NCBI GenBank assembly: GCA_016935075.1 | Contig: JAFGRP010000189.1 | Coordinates: 1 to 34,129 of the forward strand | Direction: 5' to 3' | Source of the DNA: Deltaproteobacteria bacterium | Lineage (GTDB): Bacteria; Desulfobacterota; Syntrophia; Syntrophales; UBA5619 | DNA length: 34,129 nt | Shown here: positions 2,258-31,796 of the stretch, in pieces | Position numbering within the stretch: the stretch's first letter is position 1 | How the letters are laid out: each line of letters begins with the position of its first letter | Position numbers and translations under genes: made by a program | The notes under the pieces: model-generated | Databases searched by the model: none | Seen by the model: the letters and a program-made list of their open reading frames with translations, nothing else | What the model was told of the DNA's origin: nothing

Positions 2258-2992
2258 ATGGAATTATCCATCATCGCTTCCGGAAGCAACGGCAATTGTT
2301 ATCTTTTGCAATCCGCAGGGGCCTCCGTCCTGTTTGATGCCGGCAAGAGTTTCTCCGAAACGGAAAGGCGGATGGCCGCCCTGGGCAGGGACATCCGGCA
2401 GGTGGATGGCATCGTGCTGTCCCATGCCCACGGGGATCATTACCAGGGGATCGGGCCGATCGCGAGAAGACTTCATATTCCCGTTTATGTCCGGGAGGAG
2501 GTTTATGCGGCGTGCCGGCGGAGGCTGGGACCGGTCGATGTCTGCCATTTCGAGAACGGCTTCAGGATCGGGGATATGGAGATCATTCCCGTTGAAACCT
2601 CCCACGATGTCAGCTCCTGCGGCTTTGTCGTCGGCCGTCTCGGGATTTTCACCGATACGGGCTGTGCGACCTCCCAGATGAAAGAGGTCATCCGGGACCT
2701 GGACGCCGTGCTTCTGGAGTCGAATTACGATGAAGAGATGCTGATGAACGGCCCCTACCCCCTTGATCTCAAGGAACGGATCGCATCCGACCGGGGCCAC
2801 CTGAGCAACGAAGACGCAAGCGATTTCATCCGCCGGTATGGAGATCACCTCTCGCAGGTCTTCCTGGCCCACCTGTCCGAAACCAACAACAGCGCGGACA
2901 AGGTGAAGGAAACCTTCGAATCCTTCAACGAGGATCGGCCCTGCGTCGTCTGTTCGCGATACCGGCAAACGGGAACATTCCGAATCGGATGA
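2258..2992 (+). CDS. Metallo-beta-lactamase-fold hydrolase, YycJ/WalJ-like
   Basis: 244 residues preceded by GGGAGA and an ATG. The N-terminus (LSIIASGSNGNCYLL) and the metal motif H56-A-H58-G-D60-H61 are those of the small YycJ-like exonuclease/hydrolase branch of the metallo-beta-lactamase superfamily; further ligands appear as ETSHD, FTDTG and LAHLS. Such proteins bind two Zn or Mn ions and several are DNA exonucleases, but the substrate here cannot be read from sequence. The stop codon lies inside the first copy of a tandem 13-bp repeat that leads into the long inverted repeat downstream. Confidence 0.85.
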   Translation: MELSIIASGSNGNCYLLQSAGASVLFDAGKSFSETERRMAALGRDIRQVDGIVLSHAHGDHYQGIGPIARRLHIPVYVREEVYAACRRRLGPVDVCHFENGFRIGDMEIIPVETSHDVSSCGFVVGRLGIFTDTGCATSQMKEVIRDLDAVLLESNYDEEMLMNGPYPLDLKERIASDRGHLSNEDASDFIRRYGDHLSQVFLAHLSETNNSADKVKETFESFNEDRPCVVCSRYRQTGTFRIG

Positions 2993-3072
2993 TGGGGGTC
3001 AGTGATGGGGGTCAGGTCTTGAAATTTAGCGTTCACTCCATGAACGCTAAATTTCAAGACCTGACCCCCCAT
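2990..3072. repeat. Long perfect inverted repeat with tandem 13-bp lead-in (REP/MITE-like)
   Basis: Arms of 29 bp, 3007-3035 and 3041-3069, are perfectly complementary around a 5-base loop (CTCCA). The outer ends read GGGGGTCAGGTCTTGAAAT. Ahead of the left arm the 13-mer TGATGGGGGTCAG occurs twice in tandem (2990-3002 and 3003-3015). The element fills the space between two convergent genes. GGGGTCAGGTCTTG-type ends are, to my memory, typical of repeats mobilised by REP-associated tyrosine transposases in deltaproteobacteria; no such transposase is in the window. There is no T-run, though the hairpin could still block read-through from both sides. Confidence 0.8.
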
Positions 3073-3076
3073 GTTT

Positions 3077-3790
3077 TCAGCGGCAGCTGGTGCAGACGGC
3101 CAGATCGTCCACCGGGACGCCCGTCTTGGAACTGATGTAGGCCAGTTGGTCCTCGGGAGCGAAGTACCGCCCGCAGACCTTGCAGGCTTTCATCTTGAAG
3201 GTCCTGCCCCAGATCGTCCGGGTGTCGCCGGTGGTCTCCATTTCGATGTGGCCCGTGGGACAGACGTAGGCGCAAGCGCCGCAGCCGATGCAGGTCGCCG
3301 ACGCCTCCTGGAAGGGGGTGCAAACATTCTTTTCCGTCCCCCGATAGGAGAAGCCGATGGCGCTGACCCCGACGATCTTCTCGCAGGTCCGGACGCACAT
3401 CCGGCACAGGATGCACTTCACGCCGTCCTGGTCCGGTTTGAATCTCGGCTCGGCCGCAACGCCCATCTCGGCCGCCATCTCCTGGAGCTGCTCCGACGCG
3501 GGGCAGCGGGCCAGAAGGAGCTGGAGGACCAGGCGGCGGACGTTCATCGCCCGCTCGCTCTTCGTTTCCACGACCAGTCCCTCTGCAACGGGATAAAGGC
3601 AGGACGCAACGATGCGCGACCTCTTCCCCTGCTTGGCCTCGACAACGCAAAGACGGCAAGACCCCGAGGGTTCAAGCGACTCGTGGGAACACAGGGTCGG
3701 GATGACGATGCCGTTCTCCCGGGCGACTTCCAGGATAGTCCGCCCGGCCTCCGCTTCGATTTTCTTGTTGTCTATCGTCAGATTGATCAT
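3077..3790 (-). CDS. HoxU/NuoG-N-like iron-sulfur subunit
   Basis: 237 residues with Cys groups for four metal sites in order: a plant-type [2Fe-2S] ferredoxin domain (C34, C45, C48, C64), two [4Fe-4S] sites (C126-C129-C132-C136 and C167-C170-C173-C177), and a C-terminal rubredoxin-like CxxC pair (C203/C206 and C233/C236) that probably holds Zn or Fe. This is the short HoxU form of the NuoG N-terminus, an electron relay between a flavin NADH subunit and a partner. It is last in the operon, 8 bp after nuoF, with an AGGTAAAGG ribosome site. HoxU usually serves a hydrogenase or formate dehydrogenase; here only the Por genes are present. Confidence 0.88.
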   Translation of the reverse strand: MINLTIDNKKIEAEAGRTILEVARENGIVIPTLCSHESLEPSGSCRLCVVEAKQGKRSRIVASCLYPVAEGLVVETKSERAMNVRRLVLQLLLARCPASEQLQEMAAEMGVAAEPRFKPDQDGVKCILCRMCVRTCEKIVGVSAIGFSYRGTEKNVCTPFQEASATCIGCGACAYVCPTGHIEMETTGDTRTIWGRTFKMKACKVCGRYFAPEDQLAYISSKTGVPVDDLAVCTSCR

Positions 3791-3798
3791 TTTTACCT

Positions 3799-5655
3799 TT
3801 ACCTCACGATGATAGCGTCAAATTTGCAGCTTTCCCTGCAGGCGCCGCACTTGGTGCACTTGGCCGGATCGATCTTGTGCGCCTTCTTCCGTTCGCCGCC
3901 GGCCGCACCCGTCGGGCAGACCTTGGCGCAGAGGGTGCAACCGGTACACTTCTCGGGATCGACGCTGTAGGTGATCAGGTTCCGGCACAAGCCTGCCGGA
4001 CAGCGCTTTTCCTTGATGTGGGCGTCGTACTCGTCGCGGAAGTAGCGGATCGTGCTGAGCACGGGATTGGGGGCGCTGTTGCCCAGGGCGCACAGGGCGC
4101 CGTCCTGTATCCCCTTGGAAATCGATTCCAGGAGTTCCACGTCCCCCTCCTGGCCGCGGCCTTCGGTAATGTCCACCAGGATGTCGCGCATCCGCCGGAT
4201 GCCTTCCCGGCAGGGAACACATTTGCCGCAGGATTCCGAAACCAGGAAGTTCGTGAAGTACCTGGCCACGTCCACCATGCAGTTGCGCTCATCCATGACG
4301 ATCATGCCGCCGGAGCCCATCATCGAACCGATTTTGGTCAATGCGTCGAAATCGACGGGCATATCGAGGTATTGCTCGGGGATGCAGCCGCCCGATGGCC
4401 CGCCCGTCTGGATCGCCTTGAACTTCCGGCCTTCGGGGATTCCACCGCCGATCTCGAAGACGATCTTGCGGAGCGTCGTCCCCATAGGGACCTCGACGAG
4501 GCCCGTGTTGTTGATCTTGCCGACCAGGGAGAAGATCTTTGTCCCTTTGCTGTTCTCGGTTCCGATGCCGGCGTACCAGGCTGCGCCCTTCTCGATGATG
4601 AACGGGACGTTGCCCCAGGTTTCGACGTTGTTGAGGTTCGTCGGCTTGTCGTAGAGACCTTTGTGCGTCGCGTGGATGTACTTCGCGCGGGGTTCGCCGG
4701 CCCGCCCTTCCAGCGAGGCGAAGAGCGCCGAGGACTCGCCGCAGACGAACGCGCCGCCGCCCCGGTTGATCTTCACGTCGAAGGAAAAACCCGATCCCAG
4801 GATGTTCTCACCCAAAAGCCCCGCCGCGCGGGCCTGCTGCATCGCGGTGGTGATGTTCTTCACCGCAAGGGGGTATTCGTTTCGGACATAAATGTAGCCC
4901 TGGCTGGAGCCGATTGCGTACGCGCCGATGATCATCCCCTCGAGAACCAGATGGGGGTTCCCCTCCAGGAGGCTCCGGTCCATGTAGGCGCCCGGATCGC
5001 CCTCGTCGGCATTGCAGATGACGTACTTGGGTTCGCCCTGGGCCTTGCGGGTCTCGTCCCACTTCCAGCCGGCGGGAAATCCTCCGCCGCCCCGGCCCCG
5101 GAGGTTCGCCTTGATCACCTCCTGGATGATCTCTTCGGGTTTCATCGTGGTCAGCGCCTTTCCCAGGGCGCTGTAGCCGCCGATCGCGAGGTAATCCTCC
5201 ATGCTCGTCGGATCCACTTTGCTGTTGAGACCGAAGACGAGGCGGGTTTGTTTCTTGTAGAACGGGACGTCGTCCTCGTGGACGATCTTCTCTCCTGTGG
5301 CGGGATCGACGTAGAGCAGCCGGTCGATGATCTCCCCCTTCAGGAGGGTCTTGTCGATGATCTCCCCGGCGTCCGTGAGCCCGACGTGCTGGTAGAATAC
5401 CTTCTCCGGAGCGATGACGACCATTGGTCCTCTTTCGCAGAAGCCGTGGCAGCCGCTGGTCCGTAAGTCGATCTTGTCGGCGAGGCTCCGTTTGGCCAGT
5501 TCCTCGCGGAAACTGTCCACCAGCTTCTGGGTTCCGTAGGCCAGGCAGCCGGTTCCGACGCACACCGTGATGCAGGGTTTCTTTGGGTCGCGGCCCGCCT
5601 TGAGTCTCTCCTGCACGCTTTTCAGTTCATTGAAGGATTTAATCTTGTTCATCAT
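3799..5655 (-). CDS. NADH-oxidoreductase flavoprotein subunit, NuoF/HydB/HndC-like
   Basis: 618 residues. An N-terminal thioredoxin-like [2Fe-2S] domain (C32, C37, C69, C73) is followed by the NuoF core: the NADH/FMN glycine loop GRGGGGFPAG (187-196) and NADEGDPGAYMDR (215-227), then the [4Fe-4S] site C476-C479-C482 with C522. Two extra ferredoxin clusters sit at the end (C570-C573-C576-C580 and C600-C603-C606-C610). This five-part architecture is that of the NAD(P)H subunit of electron-bifurcating or NAD-linked hydrogenases rather than respiratory complex I. Its start overlaps the nuoE stop by 17 bp and follows AAGAAGGG. All expected cofactor residues are present. Confidence 0.92.
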   Translation of the reverse strand: MMNKIKSFNELKSVQERLKAGRDPKKPCITVCVGTGCLAYGTQKLVDSFREELAKRSLADKIDLRTSGCHGFCERGPMVVIAPEKVFYQHVGLTDAGEIIDKTLLKGEIIDRLLYVDPATGEKIVHEDDVPFYKKQTRLVFGLNSKVDPTSMEDYLAIGGYSALGKALTTMKPEEIIQEVIKANLRGRGGGGFPAGWKWDETRKAQGEPKYVICNADEGDPGAYMDRSLLEGNPHLVLEGMIIGAYAIGSSQGYIYVRNEYPLAVKNITTAMQQARAAGLLGENILGSGFSFDVKINRGGGAFVCGESSALFASLEGRAGEPRAKYIHATHKGLYDKPTNLNNVETWGNVPFIIEKGAAWYAGIGTENSKGTKIFSLVGKINNTGLVEVPMGTTLRKIVFEIGGGIPEGRKFKAIQTGGPSGGCIPEQYLDMPVDFDALTKIGSMMGSGGMIVMDERNCMVDVARYFTNFLVSESCGKCVPCREGIRRMRDILVDITEGRGQEGDVELLESISKGIQDGALCALGNSAPNPVLSTIRYFRDEYDAHIKEKRCPAGLCRNLITYSVDPEKCTGCTLCAKVCPTGAAGGERKKAHKIDPAKCTKCGACRESCKFDAIIVR

Positions 5656-6118
5656 CAGTCGTACCCTTCTTCCCTAATTTCTTGAGGATCTTCGTCGATT
5701 TGGCAATGTTCATGTGCCCGTGATACTCCCCGTCCACCACGAGAACGGGCCCCAGGGCGCAGGCCCCGAGACAGCCGACCGTCTCGTAGGAAAACTCGAG
5801 GTCGGCCGTCGTTTCACCTTCCTTGATTCCGAGGATGTCCGCAACGTTGCGGGCGATCAGTTCGGCGCCCCGGACGTGGCACGCCGTTCCCATGCAGAGG
5901 CTGAGCTGATGACGCCCCTTGGGTTTCAGGCTGAAGGCCTTGTAAAACGTCACCACCTCGTACACGCGGCTGATCGGCACGCTGAGGCGGGCTCCGACCG
6001 CAAACAGGGCATCCTTGGGAAGATAATTGAACTCCTTCTGGACGTCCTGGAGGATGGGAACCAGGTAACTCTTGTCCCCGCCGTATCGCTGAACGATCTC
6101 CTTAACCTTTTCTTCCAT
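5639..6118 (-). CDS. NADH-oxidoreductase [2Fe-2S] subunit, NuoE/HydC-like
   Basis: 159 residues, normal for NuoE. A helical N-terminus (VPILQDVQKEFNYLP) leads into the thioredoxin-like domain with the four [2Fe-2S] ligands C75, C80, C116 and C120 (CMGTAC and CLGAC). It pairs with the NuoF-like subunit to pass electrons between NAD(H), FMN and the Fe-S chain. It has a GAGG ribosome site, starts 37 bp after porB and overlaps nuoF, so all these genes are probably one transcript. Nothing is missing compared with the family. Confidence 0.92.
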   Translation of the reverse strand: MEEKVKEIVQRYGGDKSYLVPILQDVQKEFNYLPKDALFAVGARLSVPISRVYEVVTFYKAFSLKPKGRHQLSLCMGTACHVRGAELIARNVADILGIKEGETTADLEFSYETVGCLGACALGPVLVVDGEYHGHMNIAKSTKILKKLGKKGTTDDEQD

Positions 6119-12528: not shown

Positions 12529-12717
12529 ATGAAGATTCCATTTGACGACCTTCTCGGCATAACGGCCGGCGTTACCGGAAACCCGGCAATCCTTGCGTAA
12601 GCAGCCAAACTGGTTCCCACGGACAGGCCCGATATCGGATTTTCCATCATCTTCCCCGGTGCGACGATACTGAAGATCATTATCGTCCAGATTGTCATCG
12701 CCGTCGGGGCAGGCTGA
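12529..12717 (+). pseudogene. C-terminal remnant of an AspT/YidE-type transporter
   Basis: The frame 12529-12717 reads like the last 60 residues of the Asp/Ala-antiporter (YidE/YbjL duplication) family: DLLGITAGVTGNPAILA, then a stop, then LVPTDRPDIGF and a hydrophobic IIFPGATILKIIIVQIVIAV end. The in-frame TAA at 12598-12600 falls where a Tyr or Phe codon would be expected. No upstream transporter body exists; tRNA-Ser lies just 150 bases away. It is a degraded piece with no plausible product. It may mark an earlier transporter-plus-serine-dehydratase operon that lost its first gene. Confidence 0.65.
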
Positions 12718-12761
12718 TACGAATATTCAACGCATTGAAAAAATAAAGCAGGAGGTGTTTT

Positions 12762-14273
12762 ATGAATCGCCGTAATTTCTTGAAAGCAGCCTTGATTTCA
12801 TCCGCGGGAGTGGGCAGTCTTTTGCTGAACCCGAATCAGGTATCCGCCAGGGGAATCCCTTCCCGTGCCTTTCCCGGCATCGCTAAGGACAAATGTTACC
12901 GGAGCCCGCCCCAAGGCGTAATCGTTACATCTCTTACGGATATGTTCAAGATCGGTCCGGGGCCGTCGAGTTCACATACCATCGCGCCCCTGCGCATTTC
13001 GAGCAACTTCCGGACAGCCCTGGAGGGGTTGCCGAAAGACGTCATGGAAAAGGCGGAACGCATCGAAGCCAGGCTCTACGGCAGCCTGAGCGCCACGGGC
13101 AGAGGGCACCGCACCGACCGCGCCGTTCTGGCGGGTTTGCTGGGACAGAAGACGGAGACCTGCGACACGAAGCTGATGGATGAGCTCCAGGACACCACGA
13201 AGAAGTACACGACGGTAATAAACGGCAAAAGCTTTACTCTGGGCAAGGACACCCTGGTATGGGACAAGGTGGAGCATAACTATCCCTTCACCAATACTCT
13301 GATCATGCGGCTGATCGGAAAGGACGGGTCGGCGCTCTTTGAACGTGAGTACTATTCACCGGGCGGGGGCTTCTTTCAGTGGAAAGGGCAGCCGGCTCCG
13401 GATCGCGGACAGCCCGTACACCGCTACGGCAGCATGACGGAGTTCAAGCGTCTGGCAAAAGAGAAAAAAAAGAGCCTGCACGAGATCATGATTGGAAACG
13501 AGAAGGCCATCATGAAAACCGGTGATAAGGAAATATATGCGCATCTCGACATGGTTCTGAAAACGATGGAAGGCGGGGTGAAGCGGGGACTCAAGGAAGA
13601 GGGCCTGCTGCCCGGGCCGTTCGAAATGCACAGGAAGGCAAAAAGGATTTACACGCAGTCATTGAAAGCGAAAAGTGGAGATCGTTACATGCAGCAGGTC
13701 AGCAGCTACGCCCTGGCCGTGTCGGAAGGCAACGCCGCCGGCCGTCTGGCCGTTACCGCCCCCACCCTGGGTTCGGCGGGAACCATGCCGGCGATTGTCT
13801 ATGTAATGAAGAATCATATGAAGCTTTCCCGCGACGCCATGCGCAAAGGACTTCTGGCCGCCGGCCTGGTCGGGTTTCTTTGCAAGAACAACGCGGGCAT
13901 TGACGGTGCGGATGTGGGATGTCAGGGCGAGATTGGCGTCGCGTCGTCGATGGCCGCCGCCATGATCGCATACGCGACCGGCGCTTCCCTCGAGGCCACG
14001 GAGGTGGCGGCGACGATTGCCCTCGAACATCACCTGGGCATGTCCTGCGATCCGGTGGGAGGATTTGTCGTGATACCGTGCATCGAAAGGAACGCCTTCG
14101 GCGCCATCAAGGCCTACAATGCCTACCTGATTGCGACCAGCGAGATCACCTCGCAGCACTGGGAGGACCTGGACAGGGTCATCATGGCCATGCTGGAGAC
14201 GGGCAAGGCCCTGCCTCCCCAGTTCAGGGAGCTGGGGACCGGCGGCCTGGGCGTGACGATGGTCGACTGCTGA
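12762..14273 (+). CDS. L-serine dehydratase ([4Fe-4S], single chain) with twin-arginine leader
   Basis: 503 residues after a strong AGGAGGTG site. The mature part is a full-length iron-sulfur L-serine ammonia-lyase: beta domain with FKIGPGPSSSHT near residue 63, alpha domain with GADVGCQGEIG and GMSCDPVGG. C387, C429 and C440 are spaced 42 and 11 apart, as I recall for the three cluster ligands of the Legionella enzyme, and the very last residue is Cys503, matching that enzyme's C-terminal 'tail-in-mouth' Cys. Unusually, the protein begins MNRRNFLKAALISSAG, a good Tat signal with hydrophobic core and an Ala-rich cleavage area near 29. The enzyme converts serine to pyruvate and ammonia; family members are normally cytoplasmic. 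A Tat-exported Fe-S enzyme would act in the periplasm. Export is inferred. Confidence 0.88.
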   Translation: MNRRNFLKAALISSAGVGSLLLNPNQVSARGIPSRAFPGIAKDKCYRSPPQGVIVTSLTDMFKIGPGPSSSHTIAPLRISSNFRTALEGLPKDVMEKAERIEARLYGSLSATGRGHRTDRAVLAGLLGQKTETCDTKLMDELQDTTKKYTTVINGKSFTLGKDTLVWDKVEHNYPFTNTLIMRLIGKDGSALFEREYYSPGGGFFQWKGQPAPDRGQPVHRYGSMTEFKRLAKEKKKSLHEIMIGNEKAIMKTGDKEIYAHLDMVLKTMEGGVKRGLKEEGLLPGPFEMHRKAKRIYTQSLKAKSGDRYMQQVSSYALAVSEGNAAGRLAVTAPTLGSAGTMPAIVYVMKNHMKLSRDAMRKGLLAAGLVGFLCKNNAGIDGADVGCQGEIGVASSMAAAMIAYATGASLEATEVAATIALEHHLGMSCDPVGGFVVIPCIERNAFGAIKAYNAYLIATSEITSQHWEDLDRVIMAMLETGKALPPQFRELGTGGLGVTMVDC

Positions 14274-14309
14274 AAGAAATGCCGATAAAGGCGATTTGAA
14301 AAAAATGAG

Positions 14310-14353
14310 GCGCCGCCCGGGGTTTCCCGGAGGGGCGGCGCTTCAGGTTTTTT
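14310..14353 (+). terminator. Rho-independent terminator after serine dehydratase
   Basis: Stem GCGCCGCCC (14310-14318) with GGGCGGCGC (14333-14341), an inner CGGG/CCCG pairing, then six T at 14348-14353. It lies 36 bases after the stop codon and has a normal intrinsic terminator form. Confidence 0.85.
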
Positions 14354-14632
14354 ACGAGTTGAGCAATCATGAATGACAGAAGCGTTGAGAGGATCGGTCA
14401 ATTTCGGTACTGGGTGAAAGCGAGCAAGGAGGGGAAGCTGCAGAAGGTTGGAAAGCAGCAAAGACCCCTGCCGCCCATGAGCGGCAATACTATGCCTTAC
14501 GCATCGCGGCATGAGGACAATTCGCGTCCACTATTGACATCAGATGCCACCTTAATGTTTTAAAAACTGGATGATTCAAAGGTATGACCGGCATAATCAC
14601 GATCTGTTTTTCTCTACATGAAAGGAGCCAAG
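14354..14632 (+). other. Gene-free spacer before the C69 dipeptidase gene
   Basis: About 280 bases with no convincing gene. TTGACA at 14534-14539 followed by TTTTAA at 14558-14563 (18-base spacer) is a weak promoter candidate for the dipeptidase gene. A short open frame at 14369-14563 has no ribosome site and no recognisable protein features. Confidence 0.4.
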
Positions 14633-16369
14633 ATGAAAACAAGAATCCTGCTTGCAGCCCTGATCTTTACCCTGGTTCTTCCACATTCCGTGCTTGCCTG
14701 TACGACCCTCCTGGCGGGCAAGGACGCCACGACTGACGGCTCGGTCATGGTGTCCCATTCCGATGACGGGCTCGGGGACTCGCGCCTTATCTATGTTCCG
14801 GCGAGAGACCACAAGCCCGGTGCCTTGCGGGCGGTGTTCTACACCCATTGCGCATTGGGTTTCATGCCGCAATGGGGCGCCACCGAAAGCCATCGCATCG
14901 TGACCAAGGACCGTGGACCGGGCTATGACACCGCCGGCGATCCCGCCTGTGTACCCCTGGGTCATATCCCCGAGGTGGAGCACACCTATGCCTACTTTGA
15001 CGCGAACTACGCAATTGTGAACGAACACCAGTTGTCCATCGGAGAATGCACCAACCTCGCCAAGGTTCACCCTCTGCCCGAGCCCGGGAAGCGCATTTTC
15101 TACTCTGCCGAGCTGTCACGTGTGGCCCTCGAGCGCTGCAAGACCGCCCGCGAGGCGGTCCGGCTCATGGGCGACCTCATTGAAAAATACGGCTACTATG
15201 GAACCGGTGAAACCCTGTTGGTCGGCGATCCCAAAGAGGGATGGGTTATGGAAATGTGCGGGTATGACATGGACGGAACCGGCGGCGTTTGGGTGGCTCA
15301 GCGCGTCCCCGACAGTGAAGTCTTCGTTGCCGCCAATCAGTTTCGCATTCGAAACATCCGTGAAAACGCCGAAGACTTGATGTACTCCAAAAACATCTTT
15401 GATGTCGCCAAACTCAAGGGCTGGTGGAAACCCAAGGACGGCCTGCTTGACTGGACCGCCGTGTACGGCAACGGGGAATTCCATCACCCCTACTACTCTC
15501 TACGTCGCGTGTGGCGAGCCCAGTCGTTGATAGCGCCTTCGCTTAAACTTTCCGCCTGGGTGGAAGGCCCCCTTACCCGTGCATATCCGTTCACCGTTAA
15601 GCCGGACCAGAAACTGACGGTCGAAAACATTTTTGCCATCCACCGCGACAACTATGAGGGCACCGAATTCGATCTGACCAAGGGGCTGGCCGCAGGGCCC
15701 TTTGGCTGTCCCAACCGATTTGAGGGGCAGGCAGAAGCCGTGGCCGACAAGGAAGGCCGGTTGAGTCCTCTCAAAGGTGAATTCGAGCGGCCGCTGAACA
15801 TCTACCGCTGCGTCTATGCCTACGTGAACCAATCGAGAAGCTGGCTTCCCGACGCCATCGGCGGCCTGACCTGGTTCGGCCCCGACCGGCCGGCCACTGC
15901 GGTTCTTATGCCGTTCTATGCCGGGGCCACCGATCTGCCCCTGCCCATTCAGACAGCCGATATTCTCAAGCTTGAACGTGGGAGCATGTGGACCGCTTTC
16001 AATTTCGTCGCCAACTATGCCATGCTCAAATACTCGTACATGATCAAGGATATCTGGTCTGTGCGCGACCGGTTCGAAGCGCAGGCCTTCGGCAGGCAGG
16101 CGGAGCTGGAAGCGCGGGCAATCGAGCTCTGGAAGAAGGGCGACGAAGCCGGTGCGCGTGCCTCCCTGACCCGTTACAGCACTGAGAACGCCAGAGCCGT
16201 CCTCAGTGAGTGGTGGAAACTCGCGGACCTGCTCTACGTCAAATACAACGACGGCTACCTCAACACCCGAGAAGGTTTGGCCCAGGCTGTTTTCTATCCT
16301 GCCTGGTGGCTCAAGGGCGTTGGTTACGAGAAGGGGCCTGTATCCTACAAGAAACCCGGCAAGCGCTAG
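14633..16369 (+). CDS. Secreted C69-family dipeptidase (Ntn hydrolase)
   Basis: 578 residues from the ATG at 14633, placed 8 bases after AAAGGAG; the ATG at 14618 contains that ribosome site itself and is rejected as the start. A signal peptide (KTRILLAALIFTLVLPHSVLA) ends just before Cys23. The following CTTLLAGKDATTDGS is the N-terminal nucleophile motif of peptidase family C69, in which the exposed Cys is the catalytic residue. Conserved blocks include NEHQLSIGEC, GETLLVGDPKEGWVMEM and VAANQFRIRNI. Family members are mostly dipeptidases. The V-L-A-C boundary also resembles a lipobox, but lipidation would block the catalytic amine. It follows the exported-looking serine dehydratase, which suggests a shared role in using peptides or amino acids outside the cytoplasm. 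Confidence 0.87.
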   Translation: MKTRILLAALIFTLVLPHSVLACTTLLAGKDATTDGSVMVSHSDDGLGDSRLIYVPARDHKPGALRAVFYTHCALGFMPQWGATESHRIVTKDRGPGYDTAGDPACVPLGHIPEVEHTYAYFDANYAIVNEHQLSIGECTNLAKVHPLPEPGKRIFYSAELSRVALERCKTAREAVRLMGDLIEKYGYYGTGETLLVGDPKEGWVMEMCGYDMDGTGGVWVAQRVPDSEVFVAANQFRIRNIRENAEDLMYSKNIFDVAKLKGWWKPKDGLLDWTAVYGNGEFHHPYYSLRRVWRAQSLIAPSLKLSAWVEGPLTRAYPFTVKPDQKLTVENIFAIHRDNYEGTEFDLTKGLAAGPFGCPNRFEGQAEAVADKEGRLSPLKGEFERPLNIYRCVYAYVNQSRSWLPDAIGGLTWFGPDRPATAVLMPFYAGATDLPLPIQTADILKLERGSMWTAFNFVANYAMLKYSYMIKDIWSVRDRFEAQAFGRQAELEARAIELWKKGDEAGARASLTRYSTENARAVLSEWWKLADLLYVKYNDGYLNTREGLAQAVFYPAWWLKGVGYEKGPVSYKKPGKR

Positions 16370-16387: not shown

Positions 16388-16815
16388 CCAAGCGCAGCAG
16401 CTCAGGTCATGCAGTAGGCGGCGATTATAGAGGAAATACCGACGCAGGATTTTCGGGATGCTGAAGACAAAATGCCGATGAGGCACCTTCTTGAGCACGT
16501 TCATACATAACCCTCCCCGAACTCCACAACCCGCTTCTGGTGGCATGAGGGGCAAAAGTGGCGGCGTTTGCAGGAGAAGGCCAGAAGGTACTCGTGATTG
16601 CAGTCCCGGCATTTCACTCGGGCAAAGCCGTTGCGCAGGTTGCCGCATTCCAGGTACCGGCAGATGACATGCTGAAGATAGGGACGGAAGAATCCATAGG
16701 ACCGCTCAAATCGTTCTTCATAAACTTGGAGGAAGGCTTCCAGATCTTCGACGCATCGATAATTATCGGTAGCCTGCGGTTTTCGGTGCCGATATACGAC
16801 CGATTTGACGGCCAT
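16388..16815 (-). pseudogene. IS91-family transposase, frameshifted 5' fragment
   Basis: From the ATG at 16815 the frame encodes the IS91 zinc-binding N-terminus (CRDCNHEYLLAFSCKRRHFCPSCHQKRVVEFGE), then reads GYV and stops at 16501. Shifting frame by one base at about 16511 restores the family continuation (LCMNVLKKVPHRHFVFSIPK, RRYFLYNRRLL), which runs to about 16388 and ends abruptly beside the dipeptidase gene. A single missing base, probably in a Trp codon, explains the shift. The catalytic Y2/rolling-circle region is absent, so the element is dead. Confidence 0.8.
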
Positions 16816-29150: not shown

Positions 29151-31796
29151 CTATATCAGGCGGTGCAGACTTTCCATCAGACCGGCGAACATCTCTTCCG
29201 CAAAACAGTAGCGCATCGTCAGGAAGCGTTTCCGGAAGGCCGTCACCTCTTTCCGGACCGGCCGCCCGCCCACCACAACGTCATGGATGTACTGGGCCAG
29301 TGTCCGGAAATCCTCCGCCCCCATGCCGAAACGCGACATCTCCTGCACGCCCATCCGGAGAGCGCCGGCCGCAGTAAACCCTTCTTCGTCGGGTGCCGCC
29401 TGGTAGTTGCAGATGATGTTGTTCTCCTCGAGCCGGCGGGCCGCTTCCACCGCCCTGGCATATTCGACCTTTACGATGACCTGGTGGGTCTCCGTAAAGG
29501 AGATCTCCGGATCGCCCGCCACCTGCAGGCCCGTGTCCCGGAGCGCCTGGGCAAAGGCCTTTGCATTCCGGATCACCGCCTGCTGGTAGGTGTCCCGGAA
29601 GCAGTTCATCTCGTAGGCGGCCATCAGCAATCCCAAAAGGGTTCCCAGGTGGTGGTTGCTGACGCTTCCCGGAAAGGTCCGGTTTTCCACCGACTCCCAG
29701 AGGGCATACTGTTTTTCCTCTTCCCGCCAGTTTCCGGCAACAATTCCCCGCTGGGTGCCGAAAAAGGTCTTGTGCGTCGAGCCCGTGACCAGGTCCGTCC
29801 CTTCGGCAAAGGGCTCCTGAAAATAGGGTCCCAGCAGCCCCAGGACGTGGGCCACGTCGTAGAGGACGACGGCCTCGATCTTTTGTTCCCGGAGGAAATC
29901 CCGGATCTCCCGGACGGGTTCCCGGTGGAGGACCATGCTCTTGCCGAAGATGATCAGCTCCGGCCGGAATTCGTCGATGATCCGGCGGGTTTCATCCAAA
30001 TCGATTTTGTAAGGGTTTTCGGACAAAACCGGAAAGTTGATCACGGCGGGCTTCTCCAGCCGCTTGTCGAATCCGACGAAATTGTAGAGGGCGCCCATCG
30101 GCTGGGCGCTGAGGTGGCCCCCCCGGATGATGTGGTTGTTCAGAACGGAGCGGATCCGCCGGGGTTCCGTCTTCCGGTCGCCCCGGTTCAGATAATCGAC
30201 CAGGCCGCTGAAGACCACGGCGTTGGCCATCTGTCCGCTCATCACCCGAACCTCGACTTCCCGGCAGCCGAGGTAGCGGCTCATCTCCTCCTTGAGCAGC
30301 ACCTCCACGCGGTCTATAAAATCCGTTCCCTGATAATAGAAGATCTCCGCATCGTAGTAGGAACGGAGGGAGCGGTGCTCGGCATAGCGTAAGGCAGGAT
30401 CCATCACGGTCAGGCGCCGCACCATGGGGGAGACGGTCTGCTCGGATGGGATGAGATTGATGCACTCGCTCTGGCGCCAGAGGGTATTTTGAACGGCCCG
30501 CTCCAGCAGATCGAAGGTCTTTTCGTGCCAGGCGCCGGAGAGCGGCCTCTCCCGCTCCTCCGCGGGGCGCAGAAGAATCGGCATCGCATAGGGCGGCGCA
30601 TCGGAGCGCAGATGCCAGGGAACCGCAACCGCATCGACCCGGTTTCCCCGGATCTCGATCTCCACCGGATCGTCCCTCCGGATGGGGCTGTCCACCAGCA
30701 TCAGGCCGATCGCCCGCATCCCCCGTTCCCCCGTGAAATGCGTCGAAAGTCCCGCGCCCGCGGTTTTCCAGTACGGGACCATCGTGCCGCTCGTCACGAA
30801 ACCGATCTCCCCGGCGCCCTTGAAAACCCGGAATCCCGCCCGGGCGATTCCCTTTCCGCGGAGAGCAAAAGGAACCACCCGCCGCGGAAGGTCCTTCAGC
30901 GAGCCGTAATCCTCATCCTGAATCCTTTTCAGGGTCTCAAACTGGAGGGACAGGGCCTCACGGCCGACGAAGTCTCCCTTCAGCGGCGACAGGCTTACGG
31001 CAAAACGGGCCAGGGGACAGGCGAAAATGGGGATCTCCTTCCCCGAGGGATCCTTCCCCAGTTCATGGCCGAAAAGGGGCAACCCGGCTTCCAGCCTCAG
31101 GGTGTCCCGCGCCCCCAGTCCAACCGGAACGGCCCCTTTCTCCAGGAAAAGATCCCAGAGCCATCCGGCGTCTGCTGATGCAGTGAAGAATTCAAAGCCG
31201 AGAGGCTCGCCTGTGTAGCCGGTCCGGGATATGAGCACCTTCTTTCCGTGAATGGAGGCCGATCGAATGGCATTCTTGATCGGTTCCGGCAAACCGCCGG
31301 CGCCGGTCAGTTCCTGGAGCATCGCCCGGGAATAGGGCCCCTGGAGAGAGATCATCGCCATCGATTCGGAGACGTCTTCCATCCGGGCTGAAGGGAAAAG
31401 GGACAGCACCTCCTGCAGATATTGCCGGTCGGCCTCCCGGTTGGCGGCATTCACGACCAGGAGGTATTCGTCCGGCGTGAATCGGTAAAGGTAGGCGTCG
31501 TCGATCGCGCCCCCATGGCCGTTGGGGATCATCGTGTACTGCGCAAAGCCGGCATCCAGTGCGGCGGCATTGTTGGAAAGGGCATGATGCAGGAAGGGGA
31601 GCGCTTCGGCACCGCGGACGATGAACCGCCCCATGTGGGAGACGTCGAAGAGACCGGCTGATTTCCGTGTGGCGAGGTGCTCCTCCACGATTCCGGTGCG
31701 GTACTGAAGCGGCATGTGCCAGCCGCCGAAATCGACCATCGTCGCCGCCAGCGCGATATGTCTTTCATGCAGAACGGTTTTCAGGAGATCGGCCAT
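29151..31796 (-). CDS. gcvT-glyA: Fused aminomethyltransferase / serine hydroxymethyltransferase
   Basis: One uninterrupted 881-residue frame. Residues 1-405 are a complete T-protein (GcvT): FDVSHMGR (50-57), GGAIDDAYLYR with the catalytic Asp near 99-100, and RTGYTGEPLGFE. A linker of about 20 residues leads to a full PLP serine hydroxymethyltransferase (about 425-881): ECINLIPSEQTVSP (444-457), GGHLSAQPMG, LYDVAHVLGL (D647, H650) and PLP Lys676 in TGSTHKTFFGTQRG. GcvT releases methylene-THF from aminomethyl-GcvH; SHMT adds it to glycine to make serine. Fusion would pass methylene-THF between active sites in either direction. The SHMT half is diverged from the common bacterial form (YYDAEIFYYQGTDFID in place of the usual YYGG segment). 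The gene starts 18 bp after lrp, with GAGGGG upstream. Confidence 0.93.
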   Translation of the reverse strand: MADLLKTVLHERHIALAATMVDFGGWHMPLQYRTGIVEEHLATRKSAGLFDVSHMGRFIVRGAEALPFLHHALSNNAAALDAGFAQYTMIPNGHGGAIDDAYLYRFTPDEYLLVVNAANREADRQYLQEVLSLFPSARMEDVSESMAMISLQGPYSRAMLQELTGAGGLPEPIKNAIRSASIHGKKVLISRTGYTGEPLGFEFFTASADAGWLWDLFLEKGAVPVGLGARDTLRLEAGLPLFGHELGKDPSGKEIPIFACPLARFAVSLSPLKGDFVGREALSLQFETLKRIQDEDYGSLKDLPRRVVPFALRGKGIARAGFRVFKGAGEIGFVTSGTMVPYWKTAGAGLSTHFTGERGMRAIGLMLVDSPIRRDDPVEIEIRGNRVDAVAVPWHLRSDAPPYAMPILLRPAEERERPLSGAWHEKTFDLLERAVQNTLWRQSECINLIPSEQTVSPMVRRLTVMDPALRYAEHRSLRSYYDAEIFYYQGTDFIDRVEVLLKEEMSRYLGCREVEVRVMSGQMANAVVFSGLVDYLNRGDRKTEPRRIRSVLNNHIIRGGHLSAQPMGALYNFVGFDKRLEKPAVINFPVLSENPYKIDLDETRRIIDEFRPELIIFGKSMVLHREPVREIRDFLREQKIEAVVLYDVAHVLGLLGPYFQEPFAEGTDLVTGSTHKTFFGTQRGIVAGNWREEEKQYALWESVENRTFPGSVSNHHLGTLLGLLMAAYEMNCFRDTYQQAVIRNAKAFAQALRDTGLQVAGDPEISFTETHQVIVKVEYARAVEAARRLEENNIICNYQAAPDEEGFTAAGALRMGVQEMSRFGMGAEDFRTLAQYIHDVVVGGRPVRKEVTAFRKRFLTMRYCFAEEMFAGLMESLHRLI

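Follow-up and report, generated by a model that had tools for sequence, protein, structure and literature searches.

The window, the whole stretch of 34,129 nucleotides analyzed here, contains at 12762–14273 (+) a gene for a 503-residue single-chain [4Fe-4S] L-serine dehydratase (SDH) that bears a predicted twin-arginine (Tat) leader. From its sequence, the protein appears to be a genuine case of a known enzyme family adapted for Tat export; the type of enzyme itself is not new. The leader is conserved as an export tag, and an exported peptide-cutting enzyme is often encoded next to the gene, which suggests that the window bacterium and about twenty anaerobic relatives degrade serine outside the inner membrane.

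Enzyme core, relatives, and substrate

The open reading frame, whose coordinates and length were exactly those given in the sequence-only reading, scored 387.3 bits against TIGR00720, the equivalog model for single-chain L-serine ammonia-lyase (cut-off, 345.1 bits). An SDH_beta domain (residues 57–208; 12930–13385 (+); PF03315, E = 1.7e-39) is followed in the same chain by the SDH_alpha catalytic domain (residues 234–496; 13461–14249 (+); PF03313, E = 3.5e-67), and the alignment with Legionella LSD (LpLSD; PDB 4RQO) starts at residue 51 and runs through to the C-terminal residue. For LpLSD, the four cluster ligands, with Cys458 as the C-terminal one, and the catalytic base His61 have been assigned (PMC12647591). 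The Cys residues of the window protein are at positions 45, 134, 374, 387, 429, 440, and 503. In the alignment with 4RQO, Cys387 (13920–13922 (+)), Cys429 (14046–14048 (+)), and Cys440 (14079–14081 (+)) correspond to cluster ligands, Cys503 (14268–14270 (+)) to the C-terminal Cys that serves as the fourth ligand and intrinsic inhibitor in LpLSD, and His116 (13107–13109 (+)) to His61. These residues were invariant in the 14 intact aligned members with a Tat leader, and the earlier claim that the three cluster Cys and Cys503 are intact was correct. The AlphaFold model consisted of a helix at residues 3–20, disorder up to residue 49, and a mostly confident core thereafter. The structure closest to the core was 4RQO, with a TMt of 0.87, whereas the structures of the L-cysteine desulfidase CyuA gave weak matches with TMt values of 0.46–0.58.

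The distribution of the leader was surveyed in a Desulfobacterota-like phylum. Among the 155 genomes of the window's order, full-length Tat copies were present in G037, G061, G029, G040, and G082, and decayed or partial copies were present in G002, G007, and G088. Two genomes of another class, G327 (on the same contig as SKW35, L002) and G806, carried a Tat copy 76% identical to the window protein; together with the window and the full-length copies above, they make up a syntroph clade of eight intact members. This identity between classes and the patchy presence of the gene suggest that horizontal transfer lies behind the cross-class copies. A separate set of Tat-leader copies was found in 10 of 288 genomes of a Desulfovibrionaceae-type family, one of which ended at a contig edge and another of which had an internal stop. 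All the remaining relatives whose N-terminus was read were leaderless and began at residues 50–55 in the window numbering, and the four plasmid-borne homologs placed in the tree were leaderless as well. In the window's own genus, one Tat-SDH gene (L027, 11823–12119) was truncated after residue 99, with a C69 dipeptidase gene retained alongside, and another (L028, 8910–9647) was frameshifted. These decayed copies, from two genomes, indicate that some close relatives can do without the gene.

In a maximum-likelihood tree of 48 cores, from which the leader was excluded, the Tat rows formed two clades inside the leaderless enzymes, a syntroph-type clade (7 rows) and a Desulfovibrionaceae-type clade (9 rows). 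The Tat label changed 2 times on the tree versus 13.7 times in shuffles. A one-clade origin of the leader was not rejected (AU p = 0.28), and the best tree gave two clades. The stem of each clade was long (0.61 and 0.69 changes per column). The syntroph clade carried E323G, E418T, T428S, and Q437L/V, and the Desulfovibrionaceae-type clade carried N377H, P284K, and E442S, at positions with little or no variation among 32 leaderless relatives; G75A was common to both Tat clades. Several of the altered positions are near the cluster Cys in the sequence, with T428S beside Cys429 and Q437 near Cys440. The long stems and the altered near-invariant positions make a functional shift, in substrate or kinetics, possible, and it is because of these altered residues that serine is graded as the likely, rather than the certain, main substrate.

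Such a shift could mean that the exported protein is a beta-eliminating enzyme acting mainly on another amino acid, such as cysteine, threonine, D-serine, or a modified serine. This alternative would accommodate both the stem lengths and the substitutions close to the cluster Cys, but it is unlikely, since the window protein exceeds the TIGR00720 equivalog cut-off, the catalytic His, the cluster Cys, and the C-terminal Cys are all invariant, and the CyuA structures fit far worse than 4RQO (TMt of about 0.5 vs. 0.87). Moreover, a distantly related leaderless SDH (L135) is also paired with a C69 dipeptidase, consistent with serine being the currency common to these loci.

Gene surroundings and the C69 dipeptidase

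The secreted dipeptidase that the sequence-only reading had placed beside the SDH is real. The gene at 14618–16369 (+) encodes an exported C69 dipeptidase (PF03577, E = 5.1e-56) with a Sec leader and a Cys directly after the predicted cleavage site, between VLA and CTT. An SDH–C69 operon in the window was not supported, because the 344 bp between the two genes contain a strong hairpin of the terminator type with a T run after it (14306–14345 (+); fold, −36.1 kcal/mol; z, −4.05), and their co-transcription is doubtful.

A Sec-exported C69 dipeptidase gene adjoined 10 of the 20 Tat loci and in each case shared the strand of the SDH gene. It was downstream of the SDH gene at four loci (the window, L023, L027, and L079) and upstream at six (L075–L078, L112, and L116), and the linker between the two genes was 55 bp or shorter in 8 of the 10 pairs. 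The occurrence of two gene orders in two clades makes it unlikely that the pairing is an inherited accident. Of the 12 leaderless loci, only L135 had a C69 neighbor; there, at about 2770–5757 (+) in G240, a leaderless short-type SDH gene has an exported C69 dipeptidase gene downstream, at a distance of no more than about 50 bp, and an asparagine-synthetase-like gene comes next. C69 adjacency is thus not exclusive to the Tat forms, and this pair, together with the half of the Tat loci that have no C69 neighbor, suggests that the pairing tracks serine chemistry and not strictly the compartment. The leaderless genes of L033 and L133 adjoined SdaC-like permeases and that of L030 an amino acid permease, as recognized from the permease N-termini.

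Several other features were observed around the genes. Directly upstream of the window SDH, at 12529–12718 (+), is a decayed remnant of the C-terminal part of an Asp-Al_Ex (AspT/YidE-type) permease, recognized from its reading frames, which include an in-frame stop, and from a PF06826 match below the cut-off (E = 4.9e-5). Just past the C69 gene, an IS91-type transposase zinc-binding domain is encoded at 16501–16815 (−), which indicates that a mobile element touches the right border of the cluster. An ORF of 881 residues at 29151–31796 (−) contains GCV_T (residues 9–249), GCV_T_C, and SHMT (residues 433–837) and corresponds to a fused aminomethyltransferase–serine hydroxymethyltransferase; genes for the glycine cleavage P-protein and for a radical SAM protein resembling lipoyl synthase lie nearby. 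Elsewhere in the genome (G000:C233:14792-16528) there is a gene for a second C69 dipeptidase, which shares 75% identity with that of the window. In G037, the Tat SDH gene (L022) is surrounded by a one-strand run of exported enzymes (G037:C74, 5724–15990 (−)), including a DDAH-like lipoprotein, a Sec-exported arginine deiminase, an AAT-like (C45) protein, an S13 D,D-carboxypeptidase, and a beta-lactamase-fold protein.

The leader and predicted export

The N-terminus, MNRRNFLKAALISSAG, was confirmed. The predicted Tat signal peptide comprises residues 1–29 (12762–12848 (+)), MNRRNFLKAALISSAGVGSLLLNPNQVSA, which are followed by RG and lie wholly ahead of the enzyme core. It contains the twin-arginine motif NRRNFLK (residues 2–8; 12765–12785 (+)) and is supported by the conservation of M1, R3, R4, and F6 and by the helix at residues 3–20 of the model. 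A Shine–Dalgarno sequence, AGGAGGT (12750–12756 (+)), is located 5 nt ahead of the ATG. Across the 14 intact members, only Met1, Arg3, Arg4, and Phe6 of the leader were invariant. When the alignment was inspected by eye, a signal peptidase I site was seen after the h-region (VSA/RG, SLA/KG, SCA/RG, TWA/GF, etc., with the cut at the slash), and position −1 of the predicted cut was Ala in 13 of the 14 members and Gly in one. The following linker (residues 30–50; 12849–12911 (+)) was variable, with zero invariant columns and a pLDDT below 50 over most of its length. The fixed M1/R3/R4/F6 and the drifting residues 30–50 form the pattern expected of a selected Tat signal followed by a linker.

The window sequence was below the threshold of both Tat HMMs, with 15.2 bits for TIGR01409 (cut-off, 16.7) and 14.5 bits for PF10518 (cut-off, 22.7). 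At E ≤ 1, TIGR01409 (NCBIfam) and PF10518 (Pfam) matched 4 and 8 of the 14 clade members, respectively, and among 9 leaderless relatives TIGR01409 had no match. To gauge chance occurrence, context ORFs of at least 150 residues were screened with a permissive Tat pattern, RRx[FLIMV][LIVMF] within the N-terminal 45 residues together with a hydrophobic segment. The pattern matched 17 of 264 ORFs, of which 11 were the window gene and its orthologs; the remainder were 6 of about 253 ORFs, some of them antisense.

The sequence-only reading had proposed a Tat leader on a normally cytoplasmic enzyme class and had suggested a search for a Tat-bearing clade among single-chain serine dehydratases and for Tat translocase genes. 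Tat-bearing clades with a conserved RR-x-F exist and bear out the leader, and TatC was found in the window genome (249 bits). Since the leader is conserved and TatC is present, we infer that the enzyme is very probably exported, and that this occurs via the Tat pathway. In the same genome, which is about 91% complete, no second serine dehydratase and no importer of the SdaC family (PF03222) or SstT family (PF00375) were found, and one CstA-family carrier was present. CstA carriers import pyruvate and peptides. The presence of CstA and the absence of the SdaC and SstT families in this 91% complete genome fit deamination outside the membrane followed by pyruvate uptake.

If the leader instead served to anchor the protein in the membrane, or were a relic, the protein would be an ordinary serine deaminase on the cytoplasmic side of the membrane. 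The sub-threshold HMM scores of the window sequence would agree with this, as would the position of the L025 gene next to a 2-oxoacid:ferredoxin oxidoreductase operon, which would use cytoplasmic pyruvate, and of genes of the same type about 4 kb away in the window. However, in both clades precisely the Tat residues are invariant amid an otherwise drifting leader, a small residue is kept at the predicted cut, the neighboring genes encode exported hydrolases and not serine importers, and the genome yielded no SdaC- or SstT-type importer, all of which make a cytoplasmic location quite improbable. The further notion that the real start is near residues 45–53 and that the RR motif is a chance occurrence is barely credible and was rejected, since, although the conserved core starts at about residue 54, as do the leaderless homologs, a strong Shine–Dalgarno site precedes the ATG in the window and most orthologs, the leader is conserved as protein in about 18 genomes and across two clades with RR-x-F invariant, and there are no Met codons between codon 1 and Met61, which is itself inside the conserved core. 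Leaderless homologs with a conserved start near residue 45 had been named in the sequence-only reading as evidence against the leader; the starts found at residues 50–55 belong to other lineages and loci, some beside a permease, and hence give no argument for an untranslated leader in the window.

Proposed role and comparison with known systems

The proposed pathway starts with a precursor that would fold and acquire its [4Fe-4S] cluster in the cytoplasm, be exported in the folded state by the Tat translocase via the twin-arginine leader, and be cleaved after Ala29. In the anoxic periplasm, the mature enzyme would convert serine to pyruvate and ammonium by the chemistry of its family; on the basis of the conserved residues, the open iron of the cluster would bind the hydroxyl group, His116 would take the alpha proton, and Cys503 would act as a self-inhibiting plug. 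Exported peptidases, in particular the C69 dipeptidase encoded next to the SDH, would provide the serine, and pyruvate could plausibly re-enter the cell via a transporter such as the CstA-family carrier, so that a serine importer would be unneeded. We consider this reading as a whole, a Tat-exported periplasmic L-serine ammonia-lyase fed by exported peptidases with re-import of pyruvate, to be fairly probable, and peptide scavenging as its role to be plausible only, with the balance about even. In Desulfovibrio vulgaris Hildenborough, the putative serine dehydratase DVU2147 is required for the use of serine as a nitrogen source (PMC10102598).

A broader reading can be offered tentatively. Several anaerobe lineages may possess an extracytoplasmic amino acid catabolism module, in which peptide-derived serine, and in G037 also arginine-type compounds, would be deaminated outside the inner membrane, and pyruvate and ammonium would be imported in place of amino acids. 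Its components would be exported versions of normally cytoplasmic enzymes, namely, the Tat serine dehydratase, the Sec arginine deiminase, and the DDAH-like lipoprotein.

In the open-access literature, to which the search was confined, no description of a serine dehydratase that is periplasmic or exported by Tat was found. To our knowledge, no non-redox [4Fe-4S] dehydratase working in the periplasm has been described, and the window enzyme would be the first. If it is exported as predicted, these anaerobes would be able to degrade serine independently of its import, and the cytoplasm would not be the sole location of oxygen-labile [4Fe-4S] dehydratases. The enzyme would represent an apparently unreported class of Tat substrates in syntrophs and some Desulfovibrionaceae-type genomes and a testable case of compartment switching by a catabolic enzyme.

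The window enzyme shares with LpLSD (4RQO), which is of the SdaA/SdaB/TdcG type (TIGR00720), the domain order, the three cluster Cys, the C-terminal Cys, the catalytic His, and the fold. The known members of this type are cytoplasmic and start at the core, whereas in the window clade the core is preceded by a Tat-type leader with a predicted cleavage site, and several otherwise invariant residues are changed. Tat substrates with iron-sulfur cofactors include hydrogenase small subunits and DMSO-reductase-type enzymes. As predicted for the window protein, these are loaded with their cofactor, folded, and exported by a twin-arginine leader; however, they are redox proteins in electron chains, whereas the window enzyme belongs to amino acid catabolism and is a dehydratase without a redox function. 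The L-cysteine desulfidase CyuA (9FSL and 9FYI; PMC12647591) has a homologous [4Fe-4S] alpha,beta-elimination domain with a Cys/Glu base in place of His. The window protein has the LSD-type His and 4RQO as its closest fold, and in these two respects it does not fit the CyuA type. The C69 partner resembles the PepD type of PF03577 in its family match and in its nucleophile Cys right after the predicted Sec cleavage site, but differs from the PepD-type setting in that it adjoins a serine deaminase with an export leader.
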